Under the pieces are notes generated by a model that saw only the letters and a list, made by a program, of their open reading frames with translations, did no database searches and was not told where the DNA came from. The position numbers were made by a program, and so were the translations under genes. Of a DNA stretch of 64,000 nucleotides, positions 1 through 54,874 are shown piece after piece; position 1 is the first letter of the stretch; each line of letters starts with the position of its first letter. The DNA comes from Zygnema cylindricum (lineage: Eukaryota > Streptophyta > Zygnematophyceae > Zygnematales > Zygnemataceae): positions 35,001 through 99,000 of the forward strand of contig JBBHKE010002855.1 of NCBI GenBank assembly GCA_037447655.1. Direction: 5' to 3'.

Positions 1-360
1 ATGAAGAAGTAAAGAAATAAAGAAATATAAAATAAAGGAAAAGAAGGAAAAAATGTGTCCCGACAATAAAAAAAAAGTGTAAAAGAGGATTTGGAAATTA
101 AGAATGGCAAATGCTGCGAAAAAAAATAATAAAATATAAATAAAAATTATGTAAAAAAAATAAAATGAGAAGGATAATTTATGTGTTCCAAAAAATACAA
201 ATGTAAAGTTAGAGTTGAAAATGAATAAAAAAAATTAAAGAAATAAATAAATAATAATAACAAAAGGGTTTAGAGAAAATATAATCGTAGAGTTGGGAAT
301 GCATACAAAAATTAAAATAAAATAATGGAAAAAAAACATCAAAAAAAGGGAAAAAAAAGG
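1..360. other. A-rich non-coding DNA
   Basis: A/T-rich, low-complexity sequence with many A runs and no supported exon. On the minus strand it lies downstream of the donor at 398, so it is probably intron of lectin gene copy 1. Confidence 0.5.
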
Positions 361-19556: not shown

Positions 19557-22500
19557 GTAGCTTTTGTCGACGGAATCGACGACTTTTCTTGGACTGAACT
19601 GCAAAATCACAACCGAGAAGTCTCCGAATATCTCAGGTGAGCAAGTTGTTTCTTATTATTATAATTATTGTTGTTATTTAAAAACAAAAATATCAATGAT
19701 ATTGTTTTTTTAATGTTGTGATAGTGACTGTTTTTGTTGTTGTTGTTGTTGTTCCGGTTATTGTTATTGTTTTTGTTATTATTATTGTTATTGCTATTTT
19801 TTATTTTTATTGTTTTTGTTTGTGTTCGTGTTGTTGTCATTATAGTTGTTATTGTTGTTGTTGTTATTGTTATTGTTATCATTTGTTTGTTTTTTTCTTC
19901 ACGTCTCCGACTTTCTTCGAATTTGTTATCCGAACAAAATTGTGTTATGAGATTTGCGAGAAGTTAGGAATAATTGAGAAAACTTGAGAATTGAGAAAAG
20001 TCAACAAATAAATGCGTATCGCTGAGGTAGAAGAAGAGGGGGAGTGAGACGGGGAGAGAGAGGGCGAGAGAGGGAGAGAGAGAGAGATGGGGAGAGAGGG
20101 AGAGAGGGAGAGAGAGGGAGAGGTTTTTACATTCATCTGACTACCTGAACATATTGAATTTTGACACACTTTTTGGCAGAATGATGAAAGACAACCCCGT
20201 CAAAGCTTTGACTGAAGATATTTCTAAATCCGGATTCAACAAATCTTTCAAACCTCGAGCCAAAAGTAATCAAATCATGGTTTGTATGTTTGATGAGGAA
20301 AAAAAATTATCCGACGAGTTTTCTCTTGGAGAATGTGTTTCTGAGAAGAATGTGGAAGGTAATGAAACTAAACATTAGTCTCTTTTTCTTCAAACTTTTT
20401 TCTTCATCAATTTGTTTATTTGTTGTTTGTTAAGTGTTTCCGTGTATTAATATTGTGGCCATTTAGTTTCTAATAAGATTCAGTTTGTTCTTGAGAAATT
20501 GTTTGAGGAATATATGCGGCTTTTTTTTTTTTTAGTAATCACAAAATTGAGCAAATAAAATGATATGAAATTGTTATAAATTTGATTTGAATTTGATATG
20601 AGAAAGGCTTGAAATTGAAATGAAATTGATGTAAAACTAATTTGAATTTGATATTGAAAAGATATTTTGCATCAATTTTACATCCATTTCACCTCAATTT
20701 CAAAACATTTTATTACCAATTTCACGTCAACTTCAAAAAAATTCAACACCACTTTCATATCGATTTTTTTACCGATTTCATATCAATCTCATTTCAATTT
20801 ATTTTAATTTCACATCGATTTCCTACCAATATCACATCCATTTCATATTAATTTCCTCAAATTTCATATCAATTTCACACTGATTTCACATAAATTTCAT
20901 GTCAATCTTATTCAATTTCATTTCAATTTTATATGAATTTCATATCAATTTCATGTCATTTTTTTATCAAATTCATATCAAACTCGCAAATGTCGTCGAT
21001 TTCACATTATGTGAAACGGATGTGAGATTGATATTAAATTGATAAATTGACATGAAATTGAGGTGAAACTAATCTGAAATTGAAATGAATTGATATGACT
21101 TTGTATGAATTTGAAGGACATCAAACTGGTCTGAAACTGACTCGAAAACCCCTTAAAAACCCCGAAAAAACCCCAAAAACCCTAGGAAAAATGTTGCCAT
21201 GTCAATAAAATGTTGTTTGAGTTTTGATCGACCCATTTAGAATGTAGGCAAAAAAAATCATACCGGTGTTTTTTAATTGTTTTGTTTTTTTTTTCCGTGC
21301 TTCTTTTCTTCTTTTCTTCTTTTTTATTTATTATTATTGTTTTTTTTCCTGTTGTTTTTTTTGGGTGGGGGGGGAGGAGGACAACAGGAGGAGGAATTAA
21401 GGAAGAAGAGGAGAGGGAGGAAGGAGACTTCAGGGAGGGAGAGAGGAGGGAGAGGGAGGGAGACCCAAAAGTCAAAAAAGAAAAGTTTCTTTTGAAATGT
21501 GGAAAAAAAGGAGATAGAGAGAATGTCATTTTGAAGGATGATGTGGACGTAACACACGAGAGGGAGAAGGAGAGGGAGGAGAGAGGAGGGAGAGAGGAGA
21601 GGGAGGAAAGGGAGGTGGAGAAAGAGGAGAGGGAGGAGAGAGAGGAGCGGGAGGAGAGGGAAGAAGAGGAGAAGGTGAGGGAGGAGGAGAGGAAGGAGAG
21701 GGAGGAGACAACAGTTATGGATTTTGAGGAGAGAGAGAACAAATTGGTATTATCGACTACTACAAAACCTTTAATTCCTGAAATCTATTCCGGCAAAACT
21801 TTGGGAGGAGGAGAGGGAGAAGGAGAGAGAGAGGGAGGAGGAGAAGGAGAGGAGGGAGGAGGAGAGAAAGAGAGCGAAATCGGAGAGTTGGAGAAGGATT
21901 CAACGAGAGAGACGGAGAAAAAAACGGAGGGAATGGAGAAAATGGGAAACAATGGAGGAGAGAAAATGGGGAAAAATGATCATTCCCAAATGATGGAAAT
22001 TATTCCTTACGAAGTACCGGAAAATGTTGAAAAATTCAAAAAAAATCCAAAAGTTTCCGAAGATTTAACTTTTCCTCGATTTAATTCTGGTATAAGACTC
22101 GTTTTGATGGAAGAAGACCCCATGGATCAATTAAACGAACGAAACAAAAAAAATGAAAGAAACGAAGAAAAAGAAAGAAACAAAATGAAAGAATTAAAAG
22201 AGAAAAATGAAATAAAGGATATAGTATTAAAGGATTTGGGAGAGGAATTTCCGCATTTGGAGGATATCTCAAAGGAAAATTCGTTTAATGGGGTGAATAA
22301 TTCCGTAAACGAAAAAAACACTCATTTCGGTGAACCGGAAAATCAACTCGAAATTCAAGAAATGAACTATGAAGAAATCCCCTTTCCTTTGTTCTCTTCC
22401 TCTCCCTTAAACTCTCCCTCTCCCTTAAACTCTCCCTCTCCATTAAAATCTCTCTCTCAATTAAATTCCCCCTCTCCCTTAAACTCTCAGCAGTCGAAAG

Positions 22501-22919
22501 ACGAAAATGGAATCCTTTCGGTATCGCAAAATTCTTCGCAAAGAAGTTTGTTTTCTTCGCAAGAAAGAGAACATTCTTCGCAAAAGAAAGATATTTCTTC
22601 ACAAAAAAGAGAAATTTCTTCGGGAAAAAGAGGAGTTTCTTCGGGAAAAAGAGAACTTTCTTTGCAAAAAAGTGAAGCTTCTTTGACAAAAAGTGAATTT
22701 AGTGGTTTGGCCTCTCATTTCCTTCAACTTTGTGAAAGTGAGGGAGTCGAAAACGACATCGCCGATCGAATGTTGTTAAATGTTTTGTTTAAAAATCAAG
22801 TGGAAAATTTCAACTCCAAAGAAGAAGCTTTGGAAAGTGTTTTGAATGTTTCGATTCAAGCGATTAATGGGAGGAGAGAGAGAGGAAAGGAGAGTCAAAA
22901 GTTTATAGGCGAGAGGTAA
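19557..22919 (+). CDS. Unknown protein with Glu/Arg-rich coiled region (5' end missing)
   Basis: Three exons are supported by phase: 19557-19636 (VAFVDGIDDFSWTELQ…, donor GTGAGC, phase 2), 20180-20358 (MMKDNPVKALTEDIS…, donor GTAATG, phase 1) and 21388-22915 or 22919. The last is a single open exon of over 500 codons. It begins with a long Glu/Arg/Gly stretch, then charged sequence, then Ser/Leu/Pro repeats (LNSPSP) and SSxKR-type repeats. It ends in ordinary globular-looking sequence (FLQLCESEGVENDIADRML, LNVLFKNQVENF). No signal peptide or known domain, so probably nuclear or cytosolic (weak inference). The end is ambiguous: GAGAGGTAAGG is both a TAA stop and a good donor. Upstream exons would lie in or before the gap. 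Confidence 0.6.
19640..20125. repeat. (TTG/TTA)n and (GA)n arrays in an intron
   Basis: 19650-19885 is built of TTG and TTA triplets. 20027-20123 is a GAGAGGGA array. Both lie in the intron between the first two visible exons of the unknown gene. Confidence 0.85.
20540..21130. repeat. Degenerate short repeat that switches strand twice
   Basis: The word TGAAATTGATATGA (variants) fills about 20560-20660 on the plus strand. Its complement (ATTTCATATCAATTTCA) fills about 20670-20985, then the first orientation returns at about 21010-21130. The whole can fold as large imperfect hairpins. It lies in the intron before the long exon of the unknown gene. Confidence 0.8.
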
Positions 22920-23520
22920 GGGAATATCCAAGAATTGGAGGGAGCGAGGGAGAGAGGGAGAGAGGGGTAGAGGGAGTATGGGAGAGAGGGAGAGAGGAAG
23001 AGGTGAAGAGAGGGAGAGAGGGAGAGAGGGAAGAAGATTTGAGGCAGTTTTAGAAGTTTCAATTGAGGCTGTTAATGAAAGGAGTGTAAAAAGTGTAAAA
23101 AATGTGTATCCTTTTACCTTACGTGAAAGGTGAGGGGATATTCAAAAATTGAAGGGGGGTCACAGAAATGAGAGGGAGAGAGAGGGAGGGATGGAGAGAG
23201 GGAAAGAGGGAGAGAGGTCAAGGGGGAGAGGAGAGAGAGGAAGAGAGGGAGATAGGGAGAGGAGGGACATGAGGTGGAGACAGAGATTACTTTTATGACA
23301 TTGATGGTAATGGAGGTGGAGACAGAGATTACTTTTATGACAATGATGGTGATGGAAACAGAAAAGTGAGGGAGAGAGAGAGAGAGAGAGAGGAGAGATG
23401 AACAATACGATTTTACAATAATGATAGTGACGAGGAGAGAGAACGAGGGAGAGAGGGCGAGAGGGAGAGAAGGATAGGTGGAGCATTTGATGATTAATAT
23501 GGAGATGTAGATGTACAGAA
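22920..23520. repeat. GA-rich DNA containing a decayed copy of the exon end
   Basis: Mostly GAGAGGGA arrays. At about 23037-23140 sits a diverged copy of the last ~90 bp of the long exon with its donor (compare GTTTCGATTCAAGCGATTAA near 22845 with GTTTCAATTGAGGCTGTTAA near 23055; then CGAGAGGTAAGGGAATAT with TGAAAGGTGAGGGGATAT). 23275-23350 holds two copies of GGAGACAGAGATTACTTTTA. Confidence 0.75.
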
Positions 23521-23880
23521 AACATTACAGATGTAAGAAATGTGAAATTGGTCGAGATTTTTGTTAAAATTTTCCAATGAATTAAGGAGGCATAGTCTCT
23601 GTATTATTATTTTTTTTTTTTAACTTAAGGTTTGGATATCTGTGTGACATTTTTTAAGCAAGAGAACTCATTTTTTAGGATTTTCTTAAGGTTTTTTAGG
23701 GGCAGTTTTTTCTTCCTTGCCTCTTTCTCTACTTATGTTTGGGAATTTGTGAAAGCATACAATTATTGATTTCTTTCTCTCACTCTCGCTTTTTTTTCTT
23801 TCCCTTTCTTTTTGTTCCATTTTTGTACATTGTTGCATGAATTAGATGGTTTTTTCTCCTTTCACCCTTTCAGGAATTTG
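23521..23880. other. No gene seen
   Basis: T-rich sequence between the GA-rich array and the CT-rich array. No supported exon. Confidence 0.4.
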
Positions 23881-23904
23881 TGAAATCATGCATCAGCAAT
23901 TGCA

Positions 23905-24275
23905 CTCTCTCGCTCTCTCTCTCACTCTTCCTCTCACTCCCCCTCTCCCCCTCCCCCCTCCCCCCTCCCCCCCGCCTCCCCTCTCTTCCCCCGCCTCCCC
24001 TCCTCTCCCCCCCCCTCCCCCCTCCCTCTCCCCTTCCCCCTCCCCATCGCCCTCCTCCCCCCCCCCCTCCCCCCTCCCCCCTCCCCCTCTCCCTCTCCCT
24101 CTCCTTCTCCCTCTCTCTCTCCCTCTCCCTCGTTGAATCTTATGACTCTCTTGGACTCTGGGTAGACCCCCCCCCCCCTCCCCCTCCCCCCTCCCCCCTC
24201 CCCCCTCCCCCCCGCCTCCCCTCTCTCCCCCCCTCCCCCCTCCCCCTCTCCCTCTCCCTCTCCCTCTCCCTCTCC
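23905..24275. repeat. C-rich tract (CCCCCCTC)n with 140-150 bp internal duplication
   Basis: Dense C-runs separated by T, twice ended by CTCCCTCGTTGAATCTTATG (about 24125 and 24275), so the tract is a large imperfect tandem pair. C-runs make i-motif/G-quadruplex formation likely (inference). Pro/Leu frames here are artefacts. Confidence 0.88.
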
Positions 24276-24332
24276 CTCGTTGAATCTTATGACTCTCTTA
24301 GACTCTGGGTAGACCTCCGTTAAAGCCTCAGT

Positions 24333-25712
24333 TTGGTCACTTCATCCCTCAGCTTTGGGATTCCCAAAAAAGTACTTGAACTCTTTAATGATGGTTTTCC
24401 TCCGAAAAGTCCATCGTTTTACGCAATAGTTTTCCTTAAAAAAGTCCATCATAGGGTTTTAATTTGTTGTTTATGGTGGCTTTTCAATTGGCTCATGGAC
24501 ATGTGTCGCCCATTTTGGCAGTATTATGCCCTGTTGTCGTCTCGAAGATTGTCGGAGGTCTTCGTCGTATTGCTCCGAGGGAATTTTTGTATCGTGTTAT
24601 ATTTAGATCAATGTGTTTGCAACTTCAAGGGGCTTTCCACAAAAGTTTATTGTCCCGGTCAATGTAGGTTGTGAGGCGATTGTCTGTGGTTTACGGGCGT
24701 TTCTAGAGTTGCATCCTGGCTGGGCAGTTCTCCAAGTTGACATTGCCAATGGTTTCGCACCGTTGATTGTATGCCATCTTCACGAGCTCGGACATGCCTC
24801 GTTTCCAATTAACCAGGTCTTTTTTATTAGTTCGTGCTTTTTACCCCAAAACCAAGCGTCTTAACTTATCTAATGGAAGTACCGATGAAGGACGTTGTTG
24901 TTTTGGAATCGGCGACTTGTACATGTGAGATTGACCATATAGGACCTCTTTTATTTGTTATGGTTCACCTTCAACCTTCAAGACAATAGCCACTGCTTTC
25001 CAAGTTGCCCGTTCTTATGACACATGCATTATTGGCTCACAAGACGAGGTTGTTTCCACCTTTTATCTTTTTTTCAAACAACTTTTTAAGATACACCTTC
25101 CTGTCAAAATCACAGAATAAGCTGCATGGTGTCATATACGCCTACCGCCAAATTTGAGCCTCCGTTCGCGATTCATAATTGTGCTCCTCAAATGGGCATC
25201 GGTGCTTTAGATTCCCCTATCAGAGCCCTTGAATTTGTGAACAATTTTGTTAACGATGTCTCGTTGGATGATCTTGCCCATTACGAGGACCCTTTGAAAC
25301 TTCTTAATTCCCAAGTTGCGTTTACTGCATACACTTGATGTTTTGGACAACGCCCATTGTACTTGGTGTGTATTTTGCCATCGCCACCTCCTTTATTTCC
25401 TCTCTTGCAATTTTTTACAATCGTCTCTTTGCAATTTGACGTGACTTGTAGGTGGTAGTAATTTTTATTGTAGGAAAAGACTAGTGGCTCTTAGACAAGC
25501 TGCAGAGAGCTTGTTCAAGTCCTATGACCGCCATAACACCAGTAAGCTACTTTAGGAGTCGGGCTCTGGTAGCACATGTATTGTCAATCAAGTTTCTAGT
25601 AGTTGACGCTCCTATTTTGGCTCGTGTGGTCTCTAAAGCTGACGAGGGTTTGTTACTTTGTTATATTCCAGCAATAGCTATTGGTTGCTCTTTCGCATTT
25701 ACTGGTTGAGGC
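24333..25712 (+). pseudogene. R2-like non-LTR retrotransposon, reverse transcriptase remnant
   Basis: Broken frames on the plus strand carry reverse-transcriptase landmarks in order: LAHGHV, then LRRIAPREFLYRV (family form: G(G)xRPIA), LQLQGAFH, VNVGCEAIVCGLRAFLELHP, and the motif-A-like VLQVDIANGF (D followed by AF/GF). Stops and frameshifts are frequent. The same protein order is seen in the remnant at 61.5-64.0 kb, which allowed the identification. Downstream 25126-25338 reads as a further degraded segment of the same element. It cannot be active. Confidence 0.7.
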
Positions 25713-25826
25713 CCAAAACTACGTTCCTTTGTTCGTTCGTTCGTTCGACTTCGTTCGTCCTCCTGCCTCGTCACCGGAAACCCTTCACACGTGCAAGAAC
25801 ATGTCGTCGACATGGTTACTGAACTG

Positions 25827-26047
25827 TACACCGTGAATCGCTATTAGCGTCAATGTTTTTTTCGCCACTTAAAACATCTTTTCTCCGTACACAATTGTCG
25901 GATTGTGGATCTGACGGTTGCGATTGAAAGATAACGTTCTCAGCTTCCGATTGGCGGTCTCAAATTGAAAATCCGACAAGTGTGTACGGAGAAAAGATGT
26001 TTTAAGTGGCGAAAAAAACATTGACGCTAATGGCGATTCACGGTGTA
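25827..26047. mobile_element. MITE, TA target, CACCG ends (well preserved)
   Basis: 221 bp. TACACCGTGAATCGCTATTA at the left, inverse at the right. The palindrome continues inward through GCGTCAATGTTTTTTTCGCC and ACTTAAAACATCTTTTCTCC. The two arms are nearly identical, the best-preserved copy of the family in the window. Confidence 0.9.
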
Positions 26048-26230
26048 CTGCATTTGCCGTTGATCTTGTTAACCTTCTTGAGATGCTTTTCTTATTTTTT
26101 CGGCTGAACCAACTGTGGCTGGAGCTTGGATTTTATTTTTGACTTCGCTTCGTTTTTCTCCACATTTTTCTTGGATAAACAAAATCGGGGCAGCAGAAAA
26201 TATTTTTGAACGCTCAACTGCGGTTCAAAT

Positions 26231-26896
26231 CATTGTTCAAAAGTAGGTGAAAGTAGGCCATACAATATGCCTATTGTACGCAAAACATACAATATGACCT
26301 TAAGACCCATATTGTATTGGCCGCAAAATGAAAAAAATAGTAACAGGGTTGAGTTGCACATCGATCGATAGAGAATTAAACGTCATGTCTAAATTTTGAA
26401 AAACATTCGGACAAAAAAATATTTTTGTGAGTTTTGAGGTACTTTTTATTTAAACCGTCAAATTTGGACGATCTGACGGTCGCTGATCAAAGTAGCGATC
26501 TAAGAAGATAACATGAAAAGCCCATAACACAACTTACGATAGGACAATCTGTCATATTAGCGTCTGCAATTTTGAAGGCCACACTAAATAAAGCCTCAAA
26601 TTGACCAACCAGGCAGTATTGGACGATAAAAAAAAAAAAAAACCACACTGCCAAAAATACCGCGGTTTTTTGTCGTCCGGTTTTTTTTTCCCGCGCAATG
26701 TCATCCTAAGCCGCGTCAGTTCGCTAAAAAATTTCGTTTGGCGGCGTGCGCTGTACTATGATCATACGTCCGATTCGTACGTTCGTATAGGGGTGTGCAC
26801 AACGCACACACATACAGTGCCTACTGCGCGAGTTTTGTGTCAAGTTTTGTGCGCCTACCATAGGCCTACCATAAAAAACGCCTACTTTGAACTATG
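26231..26896. mobile_element. TIR element, same family as 9458-9715
   Basis: About 666 bp. Ends CATTGTTCAAAAGTAGG and CCTACTTTGAACTATG. Flanks GTTCAAAT (left) and GTTCAAAA (right) suggest a target duplication of about 8-9 bp. Interior includes ATCTAAGAAGATAACATG and CCATACAATATG blocks. A poly-A run occurs at 26629-26642. No transposase. Confidence 0.72.
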
Positions 26897-27263
26897 GTTC
26901 AAAATTTCAAATACTTTAGACGGTACTGTACTCTAGACGGTACAGTAAAGGTTGGGCCAATATTGGCAATATCCGGCTCAAAAAACGCTCGTTTTGAAAA
27001 AAGCTATAGCGTGCAAAAATAGTGATGAAAAAAAATCAATGATTGGGACAGCCGCGGAAAATCAAGCGGGACCTGTCACGATGTTACGCGTGTAAATTAA
27101 CGAAGTATAGTAACGGTAACCTAGGGAGGTTTTGAAGTTGGGGGGGCATCCTTTATTCCAAAGGACGCGCGTCGCCACGTTTACACGCAAAAAACCTGCG
27201 CGACAAAAAAGATCCCCTCAAAATTTGTCGCCTTATAGCTGTCATGTCCCGCTGCTTGTACAG
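26897..27263. other. No gene seen
   Basis: Intergenic, no supported exon or repeat end. Confidence 0.4.
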
Positions 27264-27883
27264 TACACCGCAATCGTAATTAGAGTAAATTACTCTAATT
27301 CGGTCGCTCGAAATTTCGACTCTATCATATCAAATAGAGTAATCGATTCTATTTTTTTCATTATTCTTATTTAGGTGAGGTTTAATTAGCGTAAAAAATT
27401 ATAATATACGTAACTTTTAAATAGTGTGGAGTACGGACGACGTCTGACCGTGCAAAATTGTACTTTTATTAGTAAAAAGGTACAAATAATGATTTAATAG
27501 AATCGCGCTCGCACGTGAAATCGCACTAAACAAAAAAATGAATCACATCGAAAAAAAGCCTTTCGCATAACTCTCGTCCGTCGACAGCATCGTCCGTCAG
27601 TGTGAACATTAACTGACATTCAATACGACAAATATTATTAGCGTCATAATGACGTCAATATACCGGACTGACACATTTTGTACGTCTACGTAATTTAGTG
27701 TTCATAATTATCGCGCACATAATTATCGCCGACATAACCCAACATAGAATAACTAAATAAATTAGAGTAAACTTCATAGTTGAAAAAGCTGTGACACATA
27801 AATTAGCGTCAATTACTTTAATTGTTTTTTTTGGGTTTTTGTACTCTAATTTTTTCATTACTCTAATTACAATTCGCGGTGTA
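27264..27883. mobile_element. Long CACCG-ended MITE
   Basis: About 620 bp. Left TACACCGCAATCGTAATTAG, right inverse TACACCGCGAATTGTAATTA. Both arms continue with AGAGTAAATTACTCTAAT-type blocks. Same sub-family as 48709-49225 (shared TTTAAATAGTGTGG-like and GACGTCAATA blocks). A 67-codon hydrophobic frame inside is not supported. Confidence 0.8.
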
Positions 27884-27949
27884 CTGTACTGTACAGTACT
27901 TTTCTTGTCTTCAAGCTAACATGGAAGGACCGAAATCAAAAATTCCATA

Positions 27950-28300
27950 AGGGTGCTTCCCCATGTATTAAAGTATCGACTTTAATCTGTCGTTTTCACC
28001 CAAAACGCATTTCCGTACGAGAAAAACTTTAACCGTACAATAAAAGCAATTCTTTAAAAGTACTGCAAACGTCAAGTCGATACTTTGAGTGTACTTCCTG
28101 TTTGTCGTCATGTTAGCGAATTTTGGCGTTTTCCTTTTTTCGACCCCCGGGCAAGAGAATTCAGCCCGTCAAAAAACTTCATCAAAAATCACCTCGCGAC
28201 TTGATTTGAGGGAAAGTACCTCGGAAATGGCGAATGAAAAACGGTCCACGCACGCGCCACACGAGTGGGAAAATTTTAGGTCGATCAAAAAAAATTAAAA
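27950..28300. repeat. Dispersed repeat, copy of 10329-10700
   Basis: Collinear with 10329-10700 (CCCCATGTATTAAAGT, AGTACTGCAAACGTCAAGTC, TTTTTTCGACCCCCGGGCAA, ACGGTCCACGCACGCGCCAC). Ends near GGAAAATTTTAGG in both. Confidence 0.7.
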
Positions 28301-28479
28301 AATGTCGCTTTGCGACCTGTACGATTTTTTTTTCAGGGGTCTTTCGCTTTCAACGTCATTTCATCAAGGTGAAATCCGCGAGAGAGTAGCTTCTCTCCTT
28401 CTACCGTACGCTCTCCACCTACCGAACACTCTCTCCCACTTCCACCATCACGCTCCCTAACACTCCATTTTTTCATTTT

Positions 28480-28576
28480 GCGACCAATACAATATGGGTC
28501 TTAAGGTCATATTGTATGTTTTATATACAATAGGCATATTGTATGGGCCTACTTTCACCTACTTTTGAACTATGGT
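28480..28576. mobile_element. Half-copy of the CATAGTTCAAAAGTAGG element
   Basis: AATACAATATGGGTCTTAAG … then CCTACTTTCACCTACTTTTG and AACTATGG, matching the right end of 9458-9715. No left end. Confidence 0.7.
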
Positions 28577-28603
28577 TCATGTTATTGTTCGTGTACGGAT
28601 ACT

Positions 28604-29045
28604 GGCGTTGTGTATCGATATCCTCTTACCGATAATCGATATGTATCTTTTTAACCTATCGCAGAGGTCACAATCGGGTACCCGAATCTGGCCGTACCTG
28701 GATTTTTTTTTTTTTTGTTTTTGAATCACCCGGCCAAATCCGGCCGGCCCCCAAAATTTGGCACCCAAATCCGTTCCGGGTCCGACGCAGCCGATCGGGT
28801 ACGGATCGGGTACGGATTCAGGTACGGATCGGGTACGGATTCAGGTACGGATCGGGTACGGATTCAGGTACGGATTCATGTACAGATAGAGTACGTATAG
28901 TGTACGGATTCGGGTACCCGATTGTGACCTATGAATAATCGAATTATTGTTTCGATATAGCGGCAAGGAAATCATAGCGATACAAGATATATCGGTACGA
29001 CATGACGATAAAAATTATCGCGATAGCTATAAGGTACAAACAGTT
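28604..29045. mobile_element. Decayed hAT-type element with GGTACGGAT minisatellite
   Basis: CGTTGTGTATCGATATCC at the left and ATCGCGATAGCTATAAGG at the right resemble hAT ends, but no clean duplication is visible. Inside, 28795-28890 is a tandem array of a GATCGGGTACGGATTCAGGT-type unit. It lies just past the last recognised exon (29255) of the lectin-LRR-protease gene. Confidence 0.5.
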
Positions 29046-29254
29046 CTCCTGTAAGACTGTACTGCTCGGTCCTGTACTTTTGGCCTTATAAAGTACGATC
29101 TGTTTGTACGTAAATGTTACGCAGTCAGTACTTTTTTCACCCTTTTTTATCCTATTTCTCTTTCTTTTGCCCACCATGGCCTTACCTTGTACAAAAAAGG
29201 GGTAAAAAAAGATGAAAAAAGAGGGTAAAAGACAAGAAACAATAATATTCTCAC

Positions 29255-30644
29255 CTGCAACACATGTGGCAGTTGCAACGGAAAAGTCCAACATGTAACC
29301 CGGAGGACAAATGCAAGAATAGGTTCCCGGAGGATCGGATGAATCGGTACAAGTCCCGACGCCACACGGGTTACGAGTAGAGAATGTACATGGAGACTCT
29401 GTAAGAAAAAAAAAAAAAAAGTTTTTTAGGTTTCCGAGAATAATGTACACCGTCGATCGTATTTAGCGTGTATGTTTTTTTCGCCACTGAAAACATCTTA
29501 TCTCCGTACATATTTGTTCAATTTTCAATTTAAGACCGCCATTCGTAAGTTGAGAATGCAACCGTCAGATCCACAATCCGACATGTATGTACGGAGAAAA
29601 TATGTTTTAAGTGACAAAAAAACATACACGCTAAATACGATCGACGGTGTAGTTTACGAGGCGCGATTGCAAAAACATTCCACCCCCCCTCCCACACCCC
29701 CCAAAAAAACGTTTTTTCCCTCCTGACCCCGGAAAAAAAGAGATGAATCATTTTTTGTTTTTTTTAGCAATATGGGAGGTGGAAGACATTAGGTCAGTGC
29801 TATATTAGCTCCGAATTATGGTACACTTCAAAAGGTAGAAGCAATTTTATGTTAATTTCATTGTTGTTTTATTATTGTTACTTAGTTTTTTCTTTTTTTT
29901 AGATTTCCATTTCTGTGTGTTCTCCCAATAGCAAAGAGACCAAAATATATTTACTCTGTAAGGTGTGAATTATTTTTGCCAAGGCTATTAGAGATACTAA
30001 ATTATTGGTGCTAAAACTTAATTATAATTACTTTTACAGCGTGACTCATTATAGACCACCAAACTAAACAGTGTTATTATCACTATTTTATGATTTTGGG
30101 CACTACCTGAATTAGAGCGACTAACCCAAATAGCAATGGGTGGTATACTTAACGAAATAGTGTTATCAACACCAATTTATGATTTGGGTAAAAAAGAAAA
30201 ACGCACCCAAATTGAATTATTAACTGTAATAGCAATATGTGGTGTAATTTAGCCACTTATCTTTCTCATAATAATTCATATACAATTAGTCTATGTAGAT
30301 ATGTACATATATGCATATAGAGAGACATATAAATGTGTCATCTATGTATAAATATATGGAGAGACATTTAAATAGGGGTTAATGTGCAATATTTCCTAAG
30401 CCTTCCTTTAGGGTTTAAACCCTAAAAAAACATAAAAAGCCCTAAAACGACATTTACATACCAGGAACACAAGTTTGCGAACCGTCCGTATTATTGACTG
30501 CTACAAAGGTTTTTGTACATTTGCACTGATTGGTGGAGCCATTTGGTATACAAATTCCACCCCCGCAAGGATTCGATCTTCCTGGACCTGATTCCATTTC
30601 GAGGACTCCTCGCGCAAAATTTTCGGCATTGCATGGATCGGTGA
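29255..30644 (-). CDS. Exons 16-17: two EGF-like modules
   Basis: 30644-30462 (TDPCNAENFA, NPCGGGICIPNG, CKCTKTF, TCVPG) and 29398-29255 (SPCTFSTRNPCGVGTC, YSCICPPGYML, TCVAG) each hold six cysteines in EGF spacing. Both exons are phase 1 at both ends, the usual shuffling-ready EGF exon. The second is followed by GTGAGA; reading through instead gives a hydrophobic stretch and a KRKRNR block, which is probably chance in a T-rich intron. Confidence 0.8.
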
Positions 30645-33600
30645 CTGCAAAGAGAAAGAAATTTACATTCCATGGAATAAGTTTTAGTGGGGAAATGTCG
30701 GCAGTGGCAATGTCTGCAATATTTATACATGATGGAGAAGGTCAAGTGGGAAAAGGAAATCATAATCCATTGAATAAGTGGGAATTAGAAGGCAAAACTT
30801 TATAGATTTTTAAAGATGAGTGGGAGGGTAAGTGAGAATTGTAGAGCGAATTATACTTTATGGGGAAGGTAAGTTAAGAATACCTACCGAAGTGCGCAAA
30901 TGAGCAAAAGAATATTATTTCATAGAAAAAAAAAAGAGGAAAAAGAGGCTGGAAAAAAGCGGAAGTTGTGGAAAAAAAGAGGCTCATGATAAAATACCAT
31001 TCCGGGGTTAGAACAAGTTGAATGAGAGAGAATGAGGGAGATGTCAAAGATTGAGGTCGAGATTGAGAGAACGAGAGAGAGACGTCCAGATTGAGAGCAA
31101 AAAAGAGACGGGGAGATTGAGTAAAAGAGAGAGGAAGAGAGAGATTAAATACTATTCCCACCTGAAGCTTGGACAATGGGTACGAGAGCGGGAAGGCTGT
31201 TAATTCCGCAGATCCCGAGGCCGCTGGCGATCTTCATTCGCATGTAGCCGCCCTCGCCCCAGTTGGCGCCCCAGGAGTTCCGCAGCAGCCAATAGGGAGG
31301 CGACGATGTGAGGTCGTATCCGACGACCACCACCGTGTGATCCACGCCATTGGAGAAGCAATCGTCATCGTCAAAAATTCCCTGGGGAGTGGTTGAGAGA
31401 GGTTGAAAGAGGTTAAGAGGCGAGAGAGGTTGAGAGAGGTTGAGAGAGGTTGAGAGAGGTAGAGAGTTGAGACAGGTTGAGAGAGGGATTTGAAGAGATG
31501 AGAAGATTTCCGGACTAGTTAGCCAGGTATAGCTCACTTTTGCCTTCAAAAAACATTTATAAGAAGGTTAAATATTATTTGCAGGATCTAAAAAGAAAAG
31601 ACCGTCGTCGTCGATGATTCTTTGGGAAGTGGTTGGGAGACCTTGAGACACTTTAGGATAAATTTGAAGAGGTTGGAGAAGATTTGAAGAGATTGGAACA
31701 TTATAGAAGAGGGGTGAAGAGATTTGAAACGATTGGAAGACACTAAAAGAGATTGGAAGAGATTTAAACATATTGGAAAAGATCGAAAGAGATTCGAAGA
31801 GATTGGAAGAGATCGGAAGTGATTGGAATAGATTTGATGTGATTTGAAGAGATCTGAAACGATTGGAAGAGGTCGAAATAAATGGGACGAGATGAGAAGT
31901 GGTTGAAAAAAATTGGAACAGATTTAAAGCGATTTCACGAGAATGGAAGAGTTCTGAAAATATTTGAAGTTATCTGAAGGAATTTAAAGGAACTTGAAAA
32001 GATCAGAAGGGATCCGAAGCAATTGGAAGTTATCATATTAGATGGGAAGAGATGGATTAATCTTAAATGCGAATGGGTCAATTAAACTTACATGAGAAAC
32101 GATGAATTAGACTTAAATAAGAAAGGATGAATTAAACTTACGGATTTGTAGTTTGTAAAAGTTAAACTGCTGCTTTCTATGTTGACGATGACCGGCTGCT
32201 GTTGGAGGGCCAATAGGAGGCCGGTCCATCCGTGGAACTGAACTTGCTCAAAAGATTTTATACGAATACTGCTGCTGGGCTGCAATTAGGTCAAATTTCA
32301 GTTAGATTGTTTTAGGAATCCGTTAAAATACCCGCTCAGTAAAATACTCGTTTCTAGAAAAAGAAGTTATTTGAATGCTGCTGCTGGGCTGCAATTAGGT
32401 CGAAAATCCGTTAAATATTTTCTAGAAATCCATCAAAAATTTTGCTACTAAAATTCAGAAATTCAGAAAAATGTCTATAGCAATGTTTTACATAATTGAA
32501 TCTTAAGGTCGAGACAGCTTTTGGACCTAAAGAAGAAAAAATGATGGAAAGATGGATAATCCGTACTTGAACAACATTAGGATTTTATTGGGTTTTCTTG
32601 GATTTTTTATCATTAGCTGAGGTTCTTCTAAGATTTCTCACTCTTTTCCTTAAGGTTAGGCCATTTCGAAGTGTTTTGTTCGCAAAATTGAAGGGATATG
32701 TGAATTTAGGGTGGTTTAGGGTTATTTTTTTGGGTTTTTCTAGAGTTTTTCAGGGTTCTTTTGAGGTTTTTCACCTTAGGTTCAAGACAACTTTCGGATC
32801 CAATAAAAAGAAGTGTTGGGACGAGACCGGTATTTCCAGCGTATTCTAAAGCTTCATTCGGTGATCCTCCTTGGTCGCAAGTTTTGTTTGTATTCGAACA
32901 AATTAAGAATTGCTGTTCTGCGATACTGGGAACAGGAAATTTTCCGGCGTTTGCGATAAAATAAGCACTTTCGATCGCCGAACTCGTACCGATTGCCCAG
33001 CAATTATCTGCAAAAATATGATATATATACTATTTAAATTGTTTAACAATGCTCAATGATTTCAATTGATTTGATTTGATTGCATTTGATTTGATTGGGT
33101 TTGATTGAATTTATAGCTTTCGTGAAAATCTTCTGAATTTTCTTAAAAAAATCATCTCTAAAAAAAATCATCTCTTAAAACAATCTTCCCTGATAATAAT
33201 CTTTTAACAGTCGACTGTAAAATAATCTTCAGTGATTTTCTCTGATTTTTGCAGATTCTTGGAAAACAATCGTCTTATTGTTGACTGTACAAATAAAAAA
33301 AGGGCATCTACAAGTTCCTTGATCCTTAACCACAAACAAAAAAAGGGCATCTTTAGGGGAAAAAATAAAAGGGATGTTTTTTTAATTACTACAAGTTCCT
33401 TCATCATTAACTACAAACAAAAAAAGGGCATCTTTAGTAAAAAAAAAAAAGGGATGTTTTTTTTACTTACTACAAGTTCCTTGGTCCTTGACTTGTTGCA
33501 CCGCGTTTACGTCGACCCAACTCCAACTCGTGGCGACCATCCAAGATCGAGTCGATTTTTTGTTTGAATTCAAATATCCGGCACTTGTATACCGGAAAAA

Positions 33601-36600
33601 CTTATTCATTTTCGAGGAAGGAGGAGAGAGAGGCGTTTCCACCAACCCAAGACCGCGATTTTCTGCGTTTAAAAAAAATATCAAAGTACAGGACTTTTTT
33701 TTTACACCTCCATCGGTCAGATTTTCCATTTCAAAAGGAAAACAATGCTGATTTCAAATCACGAGACTGATGGAATGGACAAGACAAAACGAAATACCAA
33801 AATAACAATTTAAGTCTGTTCAATTTACTGACTCGGGATGCGAAATTTGTATTTAACTTGCATAAGATAATGAGTATAGCCATAGAAAATTATAAACATA
33901 ACATGCTATGATTATATAATACTATAATGTTATATAGCACCATGAATGTAAATGGGTATAATCATACAACATCATAATTGTATAATACCGTAATAGCACA
34001 TAACACATTTGTGAGATAAAGGATATAATGATCTACATTATAATCATATCATACAATAACTAAATAATACTATATCATTATATGACAACATAAATGTCAA
34101 CCGGGAAAAATTAGAATTGAATAATACTATAACTTTGTATAACACTGTAATATTGTATAATACAATGGTGTATACAAATGTGAGACTTACTGAAAGTACA
34201 AGTGAATGGAGAGTCGACATTGGTGTAATCCGTATCACAAGTACATGTGGGAGATCCGAAAATTCCGAAGATTCCGGATTTTATGGATTTTCCGGGAATT
34301 CCGGGAATTCCGGAAGTTCCGGAGCAAAATCCATGGCCTCCACAAGCTCCCAAAGGTTGTGTGGAATTACAAAATTGGGCACAAATTGAAATATCTTTTT
34401 GAGATTCTTTTGTACATTTGAACTCGGGATCTTGAAAATCGAAACAATTTGTTTTGAAAACCACTCGAGTGCACAATTGTACCCCATTTACGGAAATGGA
34501 GGGAGTTCCAGACAAAAAATTGTTAGAAAAGTCGAGTTGGGGATTGCCGACGGTCGTAAATTGAAGATCGACGGTTCCGATAAAAAAATTGTTGGCCAAG
34601 CTCCTTTAATTAAAGAAAAAAAAAGAAAAAAAAGGGTTTTTTAGGGGAAAAAAAAAAAGTAATATGGTTTTTTAGGGGAAAAAAAAACAAAAAATAAAAG
34701 GGTTTTCTTGGGGTTTTTAGGGTTTTTTTTTTTAATTGAAGGTTTACCGTTCTCATATATGCATTGAAAAAAGGAAGGGGAGGGAGTTAAAAGAAGCGGA
34801 ACTGTTTTGTCGTTTGGTGAATTGAAGAAATCATTTGAGATAAAAGGGGTGGATCGAGCTGAGATTTTTTTAGAAATTTTAGATTTTTTGGTCAGCTGGT
34901 TGAAATTTTGAGATTTTTTTTGGAAAAAAATTGTACATTTTACTAATTCCGAGGTCCAATTAGTTTTTCTCCAGAAGTAGCTTTTAAGACATGGCAATTA
35001 TTTTGAATTCATTTTACAATTTACAATTTTTTAACAATTTTTAAGTTCAATTATTCTTCAAAGAGAAGATTTCTTGGAAATCTAAAAAAAAAGGCAACCC
35101 GACAATTATGAATACATTTTTTAATTTTATAACTTCAATATTTTACCTTTGTAGTTTTTGAATTTTTCTATTTTACAGTTAAGTTTGAATTTCAATCCCA
35201 AAACAAGAAAAAAATACAAAAATGCATATATTTCCTCATAGAAATAGAATATCTAGGCAAAATTGAAAACAAAATGACCTCAATTTGGGATTTAAAGGGG
35301 TATTCATCAATTTGGGGTTTAAAAAAATGAAAGTGGGATTCAAAGGAGTCTTTTGGGTATAAATAGAATATAAAAAAAAAAAAAGTGAAATTTAAAGGGT
35401 TTTTTTGGGTATAAAGGGGTATACACTTTAAAGAGAGTGGGAATGTTCCCGAGAGAGGTAGGAATGTTTCCGGTAATAAAATTGCTTGACAAATTCCTGT
35501 TAAGAAAAAAAAAAAAACTTAAAGGGTTATTTAAATACCCAAAAACAGAAAACAGTTGTAGTTGTAAAGAGATAACAAATGAAATAACTGCAAAAAAAAA
35601 AAAAAGGGATATTTACATACCCAAAAACAGAAAATTGTTGTGGAAAGAGATAACAAATGAAAAAATTGAAAAAGAAAAAAAAAAAAAAAAAAGGTTTTTA
35701 CGTACAAAAAACGGAGACTGAGACAATTTCCAATAGCGTCCGGAATTCCTGTGAGACTGTTTCCGTCTAAAAACCTGAAAAAAAATATATAGAGAAAAAT
35801 AAATTAAAATATAAATAAAGAAAAAGAAATGGAAAATAAAAGAATGCTAAAGAGGATTAAAACTGTTAAGAGCCGTAAAAAGGTTATCTTGATGGAAAAT
35901 GAAATATCTCATCTTTTCTTCTTTCCTCTCCCGCTCAAGAGAAGACATTTCTTAAAAGAGGGTAATATGGTAAGTACTCTCTCTCTCTCTATCTCTCTCT
36001 CCCTCTCCCTCTCGCTCTGCCGCTCTTCCTCCCCTCTCCCTATCCCTATCCCTCGCCCTCTCCCTCTCCCTCCCTCTCCCCCTCTCAATCTCCTCTCATT
36101 TTCTGCACCAATCTCTTTCCTTCTTCCCTAACCAATCCCTCCCCCTCTTCCCTCTTCCTTCTTCCCTCCACCATTCCACAGCTCCCAAAACCCTCGTCCT
36201 CCGCCGCCCTCTTCTCCCTCTTCCTCTCCCTCTCCCTCCTCTCCCTCTCCCTCCCTTCCCACGCCACACGTGTGAGCAAAATCAAAATGCCCAGCGTAAC
36301 TCCCTTCGAAGCTGCAAGCCTCGACCTCCCAACTTGCTGCCCGGACTCTCCCTCCCTTTATTGCGACTTTTTTTTCCAAAATTACGCCCATACGGTTCCC
36401 GAATTCCACATTAAAGACGGTATTCTCGACGACCACGCGATCAGTCCAATCGATCTCCAGTCGTTGAATTGGAAAGGATCCTACGAACAGTTTTCGCCCG
36501 AGATTTACGACTCGAAGACCGGGAATCCGGTGGAAGTGAGCAGTTCTTGGATGAATGGGACTCTCCTGCAGTGTCCTGAGCCTCTCTCGCCGTATATTAA

Positions 36601-37748
36601 CGCGGGGAATCAGTTTTATGTCACGGGAGATAAAGGGACAGGTGGGTGGGAAGGTCCTTTCTTCTTGTTCTCTCTCTCTCTCTCTCGCTCTCTCTCCTGG
36701 TCTCTCTCCTGGTCTCCCTCTCTCGCTCTCTCTCTCTCTCTTGCCCTCTCTCCCTCGCTTTCCCTCTCGCTCTCTCTATCCGCCTGTCTCTCTCTCTCCG
36801 TCTCTCCCTCTCGCTCTCTCTCTTTCTCTCCCTCTCTCGCTCTTTCTCTCTCTGTCTCGCTCTCTCTCCCTCTCGTTTGTGTGATCTCCCTTCTATATGT
36901 GAATATCCCTTACCTTTTGTGTGAGGTTAAGTGATACATTTTTGTGTCTCTCTCCTTTCATTAATTCCTCAATCGAAAATAAATTAAGACCGCCTGCAAG
37001 GCTTCTTTTCTCTCTTCCTCTCTCCTCTCTCCCTCTCCCTCTCCCTCTCTCTCTTTTCCTCTCCCTCTCACTTTCTTTCTCCCTTTCACCCTCTCTTTTT
37101 TCTCTCTCCAATTTTTGGACATCCCCTCACCTCTGGCCTACAAACTTTTGACTCTCCCTTTCCCCCCCTCTTTCTCGGTTTTTTTTTCTCCCTCTCCCTC
37201 TCTCTCTCTCTCTCCCTCTCTCTCCCTCTCTCTCTTTCTCTCTCATTTTAGAAAGGCGCGAGCAGTTTCCGATGGAATCCGGAATGCTTCCATTTAATTG
37301 GTTGTTGGAAAAATCTCTACAGAAAAAAAAAAAATAATAATAATAATAAGTAAATAAAAAACTAATAAATAAAAAACAAATATTAGTCCCTCAAAAAAAT
37401 GGTAGAAAAAATTAAAAAGAAAAGCTCCAAAACTTGAGAACCAAAATTTAAAAAAGTATATAAGTAAACTCTTACAAATCTTAAAAAACCAAAACCAAAA
37501 CCGAAACCAAAAACAAAAAAAAGGGGTAAAAAAAAAAACTCACAAAATTCTAAGTCGTTGAAGATTCCCAATGGATGATGGAATTAGTCCACCGAAAAAA
37601 TTTGAAGATAAATCCCTACAAAAAGAATAAAAGCAATTAAAAAGAAGGAAAAAAACAATTAAAGTGTAAATTAAATAAAAAGACAAAAGGGAAATTTTAG
37701 AGGCGAAAGCAAGAAAGAACGAAAGTTAAAAAAAATGAAAGCGAGAGG

Positions 37749-37842
<94 letters not shown>

Positions 37843-38953
37843 AACGAGTTTCTAACAATTTCCAGGCTTATAAGTTAACTAATTGACCAAAAAACAAAAA
37901 AGTTGAAATGGTTAAAAAAAAAAAAATAGAAAATTTATAAAGAAAAAAGGAAAAAGAAAAAAAAAAAAAAAACTCACAATTCTTGGAGGCTTAAAAGTTG
38001 TCCAATTGACGGAGAAATGGTTCCACTGAGCTGACTTTCAGAAAGTATACTAAAAAAAAAAAAAAAAAAAGAGAGAAAAAACAAAAGAAAAGAGAGAAAG
38101 AAAACAATTGTTCTTTGATCAGTATTTTCCCTTCGATGTCAATTTTTCCTATACATTATAAATTTCAGCAATTTCACAATTTTTTTTTTTTTTTTTTAAA
38201 TTAAAATAGAGGAATACAGAAATTTCTTTAGCCTTAAGCTGGTTTGGATTAAACCTAAAAGGAAAAACAAAATTGGTCAAAACAAGGTAAAAAAACAAAA
38301 TGTAAAATTACTGTGAAAAAAGGAAGTTAAAATTTAAAATACTGAACTGAATGAAATTAAAAATATATAGGGAATTAAAAGTGTTAAAAAATGCGAAAAT
38401 TAAATAACTAATTAAATTCTCACATTTTTGTAACTTCCATGATTTGACTAAATTGAACTTCCCAAACAAAAACTTGCAAAAATTGGAACTAAACTAAAAA
38501 ATAAATATAAAATTTTATAAGACAAAAAAATCTCACATTTTCATAACCCGAGAATTTCCGGTACATTGAATTCCCTCCCAGTTGCAATAATCGGTATTTG
38601 TACCCCAACTTCTCAAAACTCCATTTGGATCTCCAGTGATAGAGGCTTTGAAATCAAGAAGGGCGGATCCTAAAAAAAAAAAAAAACAAAAAACGAAAAA
38701 GGAAAAAAAAAAAAAAAAAATGAGAGGGCACCGAAACGGGTTGTATTAAAAATAGAAAAAATATTCAGTAAATGGGAAAAATAAAAAAATAGGATTAGAG
38801 TAAGGAACGAATCAGATTTGGAACATTTCCAACAGAAGCTTTGGAGTTTAGAAACAGTAGCACTTTAAAAAAAAATAAAAAATTAGTCCTACATATAATA
38901 TATTATATATATTGCATATATATATGTAATATATAAATATGTACATATGTATA

Positions 38954-43934: not shown

Positions 43935-44769
43935 TAGTGTTGGGTATCGGGTAAATTCATATCGCGATAATCTCGATATTCAATATATCGAATATCGATT
44001 GAGATCCTCGATATATCGTACCGAGACCAACATTAATTTTCGCGATATATATCGCGATATATAGTATTTTTAAAATTTTATTATTTTATTTTTTTATATA
44101 ATATGTTATTTTAGCGAAAAAGTCAAATTGTCTAATACGCCACGTACGCCGTGATTTTCGTTCCGTGACTTAAAGGTAGACGCCGCAAAATGTAACCGAC
44201 AAAAAAGTACTAATTCTGAAATTGCAATGATTAATTATTTGGGGTATGGTTACACGAGGAGGTCTCTGTAATAGTACGGACAGCAAAATTTATGTATTAC
44301 AGAGGCCTCGGGTACATCGCGTATCTTTTGTCAAAAAGTTTTTCATACGTGTTCTGATATGAGTGGTTCCACGTAAGCTGACTACCAAATCTCAAAATCA
44401 TCGAATATCTGGAAACCGACCTTTTTCGTCTGGAAAATCGTACCTGCGTATGACGTACGTGTACTTCACAAGTGTACCTCGTCAATGTACCTCAAAGATC
44501 TCCTTCACTCTGCTGACTCTCAGGAAAAAACCGTATTTCTTTCCGGCAAAGATTTTACAGTCACTTTGTCCGAAGTCACGAGACTTTGAAAACCTGTGGG
44601 ATTTTTTTTTTATTTTTTTTTATTTCCTTCGATATATTGACGATACAATATATTGGCGATATATCGCGATGATTTGAAATTCGATATATCGAAGCGATAT
44701 ATCGATTATCGGGTACCTGAAATTCATATATATCGAATATCGGCAAACGGTCCTCGATACCCAACACTA
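43935..44769. mobile_element. hAT-type element, perfect 8-bp duplication interrupted by MITEs
   Basis: Starts TAGTGTTGGGTATCGGG, ends with the inverse CGATACCCAACACTA. Left flank GTTACTAC (43927-43934). The right copy of GTTACTAC is at 45757-45764, beyond two MITEs inserted at the element's terminal TA. Interior has many TCGATATATCG palindromes. No transposase. It provides an empty site for the Harbinger-like insertion in its relative at 46513-48171. Confidence 0.9.
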
Positions 44770-45260
44770 CACCGCGAATCGCTATTAGCGTACATGACGC
44801 TAATTGGGGTACCCCTTTTTTTGGGGCAAATTCTCAAATAGAATAAAGTACGCTAAATGTTTTTGCACGTTATTTGAGGTACCCCGCTCAATGCGGTTCA
44901 TAACTGTAATTTAGTTCCCTTTTAAATAGTGTGGTGTACGGACTGCCAGATCTGTACTATTCCGTACATTTTTAAATTTAAAAGTACAGAAAATATAATA
45001 ATATATAATTGCGTAAATATTTTCCGGCATACGCAGATGTCAAAAAAACGCGACGGCGTACGATTTGAACAGTTTCGTACATTAATATGTTTTGGTGTGG
45101 ACATATTATGTGCTGAAAATTTTTAAAAAGCAGCTTACAAATTAGAGTACATGATAAATTAGTATCATGGTGTACCCGAAAAAACACAATTTACCGTAAA
45201 GTACGCTAATTGTTTCATTACGCTATCTATTTCATTACGCTAATAGCGATTCACGGTGTA
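44768..45260. mobile_element. CACCG-ended MITE, first of a tandem pair
   Basis: 493 bp. TACACCGCGAATCGCTATTA … TAATAGCGATTCACGGTGTA. Interior includes GGGGTACCCCTTTTTTTGGG and TTTTAAATAGTGTG. About 95 percent identical by eye to 45264-45756. The small frames in both are not supported as genes. Confidence 0.88.
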
Positions 45261-45263
45261 CTG

Positions 45264-45756
45264 TACACCGCGAATCGCTATTAGCGTACATGACGCTAAT
45301 TGGGGTACCCCTTTTTTTGGGGCAAATTCTCAAATAGAATAAAGTACGCTAAATGTTTTTGCACGTTATTTGAGGTACCCCGCTCAATGCGGTTCATAAC
45401 TGTAATTTAGTTCCCTTTTAAATAGTGTGTTGTACGGCCTGCCATATCTGTACTATTTCGTACATATATAAATTTAAAAGTACAGAAAATATAATAATAT
45501 ATAATTGCGTAAAAATTTTCCGGCATACGCAGATGTCAAGAAAACGAGACGGCGTACGATTTGAACAGTTTCGTACATATACAGGTTTTAGTGTGGACAT
45601 ATTATGTGCTGAAAATTTTTACAAAGCAGTTTACAAATTAGAGTACATGATAAATTAGTATCATGGTGTACCCGAAAAAACACAATTTACCGTAAAGTAC
45701 GCTAATTGTTTCATTACGCTATCTATTTCATTACGCTAATAGCGATTCACGGTGTA
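45264..45756. mobile_element. CACCG-ended MITE, second of a tandem pair
   Basis: Same length, ends and interior as 44768-45260, separated from it by only CTG. The pair sits between the end of the hAT element and its right target duplication. Confidence 0.88.
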
Positions 45757-53847: not shown

Positions 53848-54874
53848 CATTTTAGTAATCATTATTATTTACGTTGATGATTTAATCCTTGCTGGTCCCA
53901 GTAAATCGGAAATTAACAAAGTCAAGGTCATGTTAGCGTCCTATTGGCCAATGCCTGATTTAGGTGGCCTTGATTACTGTTTAGGTATTAGCATTACAAA
54001 GAATAGGTCAAAACAATTATTACAGATGAGTGAAGAACATTATATTGTTGATCTTTTAGATACCTTTGGCATGTCCGATTGTAATCCTGTCTCTACTCCT
54101 CTTGATCCCAATACCACACTTAGAAAAGAAGTCTCCGATGGGAATGCCCAAGGAGAAGTAGGGTCCCTCTACTGGTCTATTGTGGGAAAATTGATGTATG
54201 CCATGTTTGGGTCTCGTCCGGACATTTGCATTGCTCTGTTCATCTTATCCCAATTTTCCCATTGTGCGACTCCCACTCATCTCGATGCGGCAAAACGAGT
54301 TCTTAGATACCTAAAAGGCACCAAACATCTTCGCCTCACATTTTCTCCCCCTCCTTCAACTTCCCCATCGTCTTCTTCCTCTCATTCTTTTTCTCTTCCT
54401 GATTCCTCTCTTGTTGGATTTTGTGATGTGGACTAGGGGAATCAAACTGATGAACGCCGCTCTATTTTTGGGGTTTGTTTCTCACTTGGTGGTGGTCTTG
54501 TCTCATGGTCGTCTCGAAAATAACAAACCGTTGCTCTCTCATCTACCGAAGCCGAGTACATGGCTGGTACCTCTGCCACTAAAACTGCCATTTGGCTTCG
54601 TCGCCTTCTCACTGACTTTTCCTTTCATCAAACTACTCCCACTCCTATCTTTTGTGATTCTCAAGGGGCTCTCGCCCACATGAAAAATCCTATCCACCAT
54701 ACACGAACGAAGCATATCGATATACAATATCATTTTACGCTTGAAAAAATTGTGGACGGTATGGTCTATTTTTCTCATTGCTCTACCTTTAATCAACTTG
54801 CCGACTTTCTTACCAAACCTCTTCCTCGCCCTTCCTTCGACAAACATATTCTCTCTTCCGGCCTACGTGGCTAA
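53848..54874 (+). pseudogene. Copia-type pol: reverse transcriptase end and RNase H, two stops
   Basis: Opens with VIIIIYVDDLILAG (catalytic YVDD), then LDYCLGISIT, LLDTFGMSDCNPVSTPLD, VGKLMYAMFGSRPDIC and AAKRVLRYLKGT, all classic Ty1/copia. RNase H follows in the same frame: GFCDVD, then TAG (54434-54436) where the family has Trp. A second stop, TAA near 54520, falls inside SRKQTVALSSTEAEY. After that LRRLLTDF, CDSQGALAHMKNPIHHTRTK and FLTKPLPR run to TAA at 54874. Only the two nonsense changes break the frame, so death is fairly recent. The 5' part (gag, integrase) is missing upstream of 53.8 kb. Confidence 0.9.

Follow-up and report, generated by a model that had tools for sequence, protein, structure and literature searches.

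The window, that is, the whole 64,000-nucleotide stretch of Zygnema cylindricum DNA analyzed here (G000:C2140:35001-99000), carries on its minus strand, at 31162..38669, a gene that combines LRRNT_2 and LRR sequences with a papain-type peptidase (Peptidase_C1). Eleven exons of this LRR-peptidase gene were recognized, whereas its first and last exons were not sought. They lie at 38669-38537 (E1), 38049-37978 (E2), 37615-37544 (E3), 37316-37245 (E4, alternatively extending to 37131), 35774-35706 (E5), 35496-35425 (E6), 34603-34191 (E7), 33662-33471 (E8), 33007-32775 (E9), 32279-32142 (E10), and 31381-31162 (E11). The plus strand carries another gene, with a splice donor after position 22917. In both genes, some exon ends are accompanied in the adjacent intron by partial copies of themselves, here called echoes, and the present work concerns their reality, anatomy, and origin.

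The Pfam matches of the LRR-peptidase gene included Peptidase_C1 (E 7.5e-44) and LRRNT_2 (E 2.2e-12). Its best named protein matches came from Mesotaenium and Closterium (40-51% identical), with one Corymbia-labelled protein (39% identical) among them, which points to a zygnematophyte, or something closely related, as the likely source. A protein search with exon 9 against the genome (353 Mb in 2689 contigs) returned 112 matching places, and the papain-type peptidase is a large cysteine-protease family in this genome.

Echoes of exon ends in the window

An earlier note on this DNA had listed eight echoes, and the exon ends that it gave match the present gene model. For each edge, 1000 dinucleotide-shuffled versions of its intron served as the comparison, after masking of homopolymers and simple repeats; 22 edges of the LRR-peptidase gene and the plus-strand 22919 donor were covered. 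Six of the 22 edges stood out, namely the donors of E1, E2, E8, and E9 and the acceptors of E10 and E11. Among the listed echoes, this supported the donors at 33471 (P = 0.001), 37978 (P = 0.001), and 32775 (P = 0.008) and the acceptors at 32279 (P = 0.001) and 31381 (score 40, P = 0.001). The 22915 echo on the plus strand, weak when the query was short (P = 0.025), became clear when a longer exon end was used: border and copy were identical in 122 of 180 columns, with a score of 105, whereas the reversed target scored 68 and none of 300 mononucleotide shuffles exceeded 62. Hence, six of the eight were retained. The 35706 donor echo (E5) was not above chance (P = 0.51); its unmasked alignment scored 38, with much of that score coming from a T run, and the masked alignment gave no support. 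What lies there instead is an intronic 82-bp tandem repeat (35504..35687, minus strand). The 38669 acceptor echo (E1; P = 0.036) was unremarkable among 22 edges and was likewise without support in the masked alignment. The donor of the same exon, at 38537, had been absent from the list and gave a strong echo (P = 0.001).

The clearest echoes are the outer members of head-to-tail duplications that cross a splice junction, as had been proposed for short tandem duplications leaving their outer copy as intron. Across the E8 donor (exon end 33471), a minus-strand array with an 81-bp unit occupies 33308..33493, with copy 1 at 33493-33413, of which 23 bases are exonic, followed by copy 2 at 33412-33332 and a partial copy 3 reaching 33308. 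Tandem Repeats Finder (TRF) placed this array at 33308-33482 (period 81, 2.2 copies), and self-alignment paired copy 1 (-23..82) with copy 2 (58..163) at 88% identity. The E10 acceptor (exon start 32279, minus strand) is crossed by a duplication at 32250..32471 with a unit of ~109 bp, whose copies (-192..-79 and -83..30) are 74% identical and cover the unit 1.04 times. Its outer copy, 32471-32359, retains a CAG acceptor before 32388, from which in-frame reading meets a stop after 21 residues. The same contact was observed at exon 8 of a sister gene (unit 103 bp, gap 0) and in a chaperonin locus, C2321, where the unit is 65 bp (91% by TRF; copy 1 at -37..27, copy 2 at 28..92) and the outer donor reads TT instead of GT. 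A second chaperonin locus, C598, holds an acceptor pair with an offset near 99.

Most of the other echoes of the window are more decayed or less sharply bounded. On the minus strand, the copy of the acceptor and beginning of E11 (real start 31381) lies at 31603..31646, at an offset of ~240, and has lost its AG. That of the E9 end (real end 32775) lies at 32502..32552, at an offset of 272, and has lost its GT (51 aligned columns, 71% identical). The copy of the E1 end and donor (real end 38537) lies at 38352..38463, at an offset of 112, with GTGAGA intact after 38424, and that of the E2 end and donor (real end 37978) at 37851..37887. Because the self-alignments of E1, E2, and E11 extend into T- or TC-rich stretches, the limits of these three copies are approximate. 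On the plus strand, the duplication across the donor after 22917 spans 22821..23200 at an offset of ~209 bp (border 22821-22988, copy 23030-23200).

Orientation, anchoring, and extent of the copies

The echoes are direct repeats. Edges with a copy in their own intron numbered 14 of 181, compared with 0 of 181 when the intron was reversed, in a set of 19 family genes and seven chaperonin loci (both described below). The reverse-complement control was run window-wide only, where 83 of 821 segments had a direct copy and 32 a reverse-complement one. The earlier note had also stressed that the direction of the echoes is always the expected one. The side is indeed correct, but this is no evidence by itself, since a copy in the adjacent intron can lie only there.

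The copies are anchored at exon ends. When whole exons were compared by BLAST with flanks of up to 1.5 kb, each of the ten matched exon sides lay no farther than 6 bases from the flank-side end of its exon, and the matched bases amounted to 393, compared with 16 in reversed flanks (25,287 exonic bases in all). These ten sides overlap with the 14 edges but differ from them, several weaker ones having been missed and the exon 10 acceptor of the family locus L036 added. If the copies are tandem, their contiguity makes such anchoring inevitable. The recognized copies in peptidase and chaperonin exons contain ~20-75 exonic bases from one exon end only, and none of them spans a whole exon together with the splice sites on either side.

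In five of six measured pairs, the exonic part was slightly more alike (0.79-0.83) than the intronic part (0.68-0.77), the exception being E8 of the window (exonic 0.83, intronic 0.90). Such an excess would be expected if drift was limited to one copy in the exonic part but acted on both in the intronic part, and it may help old duplications to look like copies of exon ends. Among the self-alignments, two were set aside, those of exon 11 of L036 (which runs into N letters) and exon 10 of the sister gene (TC-rich).

Echo rates in the gene family and in chaperonin loci

Besides the window, we have sampled 19 of the places matching exon 9, in stretches of up to 10 kb: the sister gene (also labelled PAR; same contig, two stretches) and 18 loci, L023-L040. 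All five exons E7-E11 were recovered in 13 of the 18 loci, with fewer in the remaining five and in the sister, and the splice positions of E7-E11 agree across most family loci. LRR exons matching E2, E3, E5, or E6 were present in 11 of the 18. Placement of the E7 donor junction is uncertain in several genes, including the sister, and these edges entered the count as obtained. This gave 138 edges with a usable intron in 19 genes, the twentieth locus, L033, having given none.

At a cut of 32, 10 of these 138 edges matched their own intron and none matched it reversed, while only 0.13% of 7136 comparisons between edges and introns at other positions passed. The matches fell at four of eight edges in the window gene, two of six in the sister, three of eight in L036, and one in L031; the other 15 genes had none. 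Weak pairs in L023 and L027 (score 28) were left out of the count. In L036 (G000:C2015:541001-551000), echoes stand at four successive edges: the exon 9 donor, the exon 10 acceptor (78%), the exon 10 donor, and the exon 11 acceptor.

As a control chosen independently of echoes, we have used chaperonin genes (PF00118; 22 of 63 profile matches). Here, 4 of 31 edges had an echo, compared with 0 of 31 reversed, and a further locus gave 0 of 12. Leaving out the window gene, which had been picked for its echoes, 10 of 173 edges remained positive over all genes. In the chaperonin search, C2488 and C315, as well as C1878 and C2437, look like paired contigs.

The same cut was applied to segments away from exon edges. 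Copies close by were found for 76 of 1208 intron-internal segments (63/937, 11/204, and 2/67 in the component sets; 14, 4, and 0 reversed), and none of 555 exon-interior segments had a copy in an intron (0/473, 0/72, and 0/10). The edge rate and the intron-internal rate did not differ detectably (Fisher P = 0.42; with the window gene left out, P = 0.57). Of 821 segments taken across the entire window, 83 had a direct copy within ~760 bp, compared with 11 for reversed sequence, and 4 of 716 matched a target 5 kb away. In 18 family loci, the figures were 71 of 2468 with a nearby direct copy, 11 reversed, and 1 of 1149 for the far target. As copies in the window and in the family loci far outnumber those in the reversed and far controls, local duplication is general in the sampled sequence. 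Exon borders are not detectably favored, the rate of local copies being similar for intron-internal segments. The proposal of a genome habit is thus supported insofar as unrelated genes are affected, including chaperonin loci picked regardless of echoes, and is not supported as far as a preference for exon borders is concerned. Across genes, intronic duplication and edge echoes showed a positive tendency (Spearman 0.45, P = 0.055).

Age of the echoes and of the introns that hold them

Sequence comparison with the sister suggests that some echoes are old. The sister has a decayed exon 10 echo at the same place, which alone scores 26, under the cut, and both genes show tandem duplication of the exon 8 donor, the left ends almost coinciding. 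At two synonymous places, the exon 10 echo of the window agrees with the sister's exon and differs from its own exon; the outgroup paralogs vary there. This is suggestive, and no more, of an echo copied before the exon changed. At least one echo appears to be older than a gene duplication.

The introns among E7-E11 that hold echoes are also present in paralogs without echoes; hence, the duplications did not create them. Exon creation, one of the roles that had been suggested, has a single predicted case, E4.

A copied exon border next to exon 4

The LRR-peptidase gene contains, at 36787..37163 on the minus strand and adjoining E4, an inverted segmental copy of the exon border and echo of the plus-strand gene (22884-23260). 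The two segments are 73.5% identical over 393 aligned columns (72% in the genome search). Of 191 genome candidates for the 22915 unit, 40 were scored: a single full-length match lay outside the window, another long match lay inside it, and the rest were partial; a widely dispersed repeat behind the unit, which was considered, was not found among these 40. A second contig, at G000:C1331:24591-24861, is 100% identical over 271 bases of the inverted copy and is perhaps an allelic or duplicated contig.

In its predicted form, E4 spans 37131..37316 on the minus strand and consists of a 72-nt LRR exon prolonged in frame by 114 nt, up to the copied border AG/GTGAGG (the slash marks the junction). The exon would be expected to end at 37245, and the old donor position (37244) reads GAGAGA, with no GT. 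In nine inspected loci, of twelve with an exon 4-like match, a GT is found at or just after the exon end. From 37245, the frame is open for 38 codons up to AG/GTGAGG, in a phase that fits E5, although GA-only sequence is free of stop codons and the phase would match by chance in one case out of three. The extension of E4 to a captured donor is therefore a prediction that we treat as a lead and not as a result. The broader idea that copied borders act as portable splice sites, with E4 lacking a donor of its own, predicted to end at the inverted copy, and gaining 38 residues in frame, seems to us possible but rather unlikely. If it were true, a genome as rich in local duplications as this one would regularly be provided with substitute splice sites and with extensions of its exons.

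Other features of the window

Inside intron 4 of the LRR-peptidase gene, and antisense to it, lies a coding-like open frame of 130 codons (36281-36670, plus strand), without a Pfam match at E 0.01. Elsewhere, the window contains a legume-lectin-like exon (40855-41322, minus strand; PF00139, E 1.7e-11), a weak reverse-transcriptase match under the curated cut-off (53930-54436, plus strand; PF07727), and a tandem duplication with a 496-bp unit whose copies are 96% alike (44768-45756).

Origin of the echoes

Taken together, the data make it very probable that the echoes were left behind by local tandem duplications of an ordinary kind, with one of the two breakpoints located in an exon and no special mechanism acting at exon borders. 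Such an event would duplicate a unit of roughly 65-400 bp, one breakpoint lying ~20-75 bases within the exon, and just afterwards two equal copies of the splice site would be present. The protein would remain unchanged if splicing used the copy adjoining the remainder of the exon, that is, the first donor or the last acceptor. The inner copy would then be kept by selection because its use preserves the protein, and the outer copy would be free intron sequence left to drift. Both the mutational step and the use of the inner site are what we infer from the arrangement of the copies.

Several points weigh against this interpretation or soften the numbers behind it. The spread is uneven, nine of the ten family matches falling in three genes (the window gene, the sister, and L036). 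Among the echoes whose unit was measured, those of the 32775 donor and of the L036 exon 10 donor span only 18% and 26% of the unit implied by their offsets, and for these two a tandem origin is suggested by direction and anchoring. The match at the exon 7 donor of the sister sits just past an uncertain junction and not across it. At a looser cut (28), 12 of 138 edges passed and so did 1 of 138 reversed. The chaperonin edges are ends of profile matches and not verified splice sites, and one of their echoes, at the exon 1 acceptor of C2321, is a weak 18-base match that was not recovered by unmasked alignment. Finally, segments within a gene are not independent, which makes the P values rough.

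Another reading is that duplication favors exon borders, or that selection maintains the echoes as decoy or alternative splice sites. GT or AG is kept in 8 of 10 echoes and in 1 of 3 from the chaperonin set (9 of 13 examined), and the surrounding bases are also intact in two, the 32279 acceptor and the 38537 donor. Such retention would be about what similarity to the real site leaves, and the site is dead in the other 4 of 13 (32775, 31381, and the donor and acceptor of C2321). Moreover, reading on to the intact echo sites of exons 1, 8, and 10 in the window meets stop codons. With an edge rate similar to the intron-internal one, we consider such a border or decoy role quite improbable. Highly improbable, in our view, is an origin from the duplication of entire exons in the manner of mutually exclusive exons (tandem exon duplication), or from lost LRR exons. 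The gene does have many similar 72-nt LRR exons, and the E2 echo could be a relic of one, but the peptidase and chaperonin copies are confined to one end of their exons, as described above.

Insertion of gene fragments, by transposition or by template switching from paralogs, has one such event in its favor, namely the inverted border copy in the LRR-peptidase gene. It appears extremely improbable as a general explanation, given that the other studied echoes are direct and local, that exon-interior pieces gave 0 of 555, and that the 22915 unit had mostly partial matches among the candidates scored. We have also considered a single inserted mini-gene, with an echo donor followed by an echo acceptor in the E9-E10 intron of the window, and rejected it, as the sister shares only the acceptor echo; the same order of donor and acceptor is seen in the E10-E11 intron of L036.

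Relation to known systems

Local tandem duplication across splice junctions, the origin favored here, has precedents. In a potato RdRp gene, a tandem duplication across an intron-exon boundary was described, with a new intron detected (Ma, Lan and Niu 2016, PMC4974935). The present cases resemble it in that a local duplication across a splice junction puts formerly exonic sequence into an intron; unlike it, the echo-bearing introns existed beforehand and gained length only. Tandem genomic duplication also figures in a review as one route of intron gain (PMC3443670). Common to both is that tandem duplication within a gene yields extra copies of splice sites. In that model, however, an exonic AGGT is duplicated and an intron created, whereas here the junction itself was copied and no intron was created.

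Alignment of exons to their parent genes has been used elsewhere to search for tandem exon duplications (Ivanov and Pervouchine 2022, PMC9013439). Exon copies were found here through a similar alignment; unlike the duplicated exons with RNA-seq support described there, only exon ends are copied in our case. Of 25,287 exonic bases, 0.95% had a copy in the flanks (up to 1.5 kb) at an identity of 80% or more. At 80%, the values given in that source, obtained by a method that differs from the present one, are about 2% (human), 0.08% (fly), and 0.06% (worm; PMC9013439). A literature search, largely without subscription papers, returned no account of decayed exon-border copies as such.

The echoes are real, occur in several genes of this genome, and are best explained as a further example of the known process of local tandem duplication. 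A striking pattern is thereby traced to a plain process, and a series of duplicated splice junctions, from fresh to decayed, is available within one genome. Such a series could be used to study how the spliceosome chooses between near-identical sites, how fast an unused site decays, and what share of intron length comes from tandem duplication.

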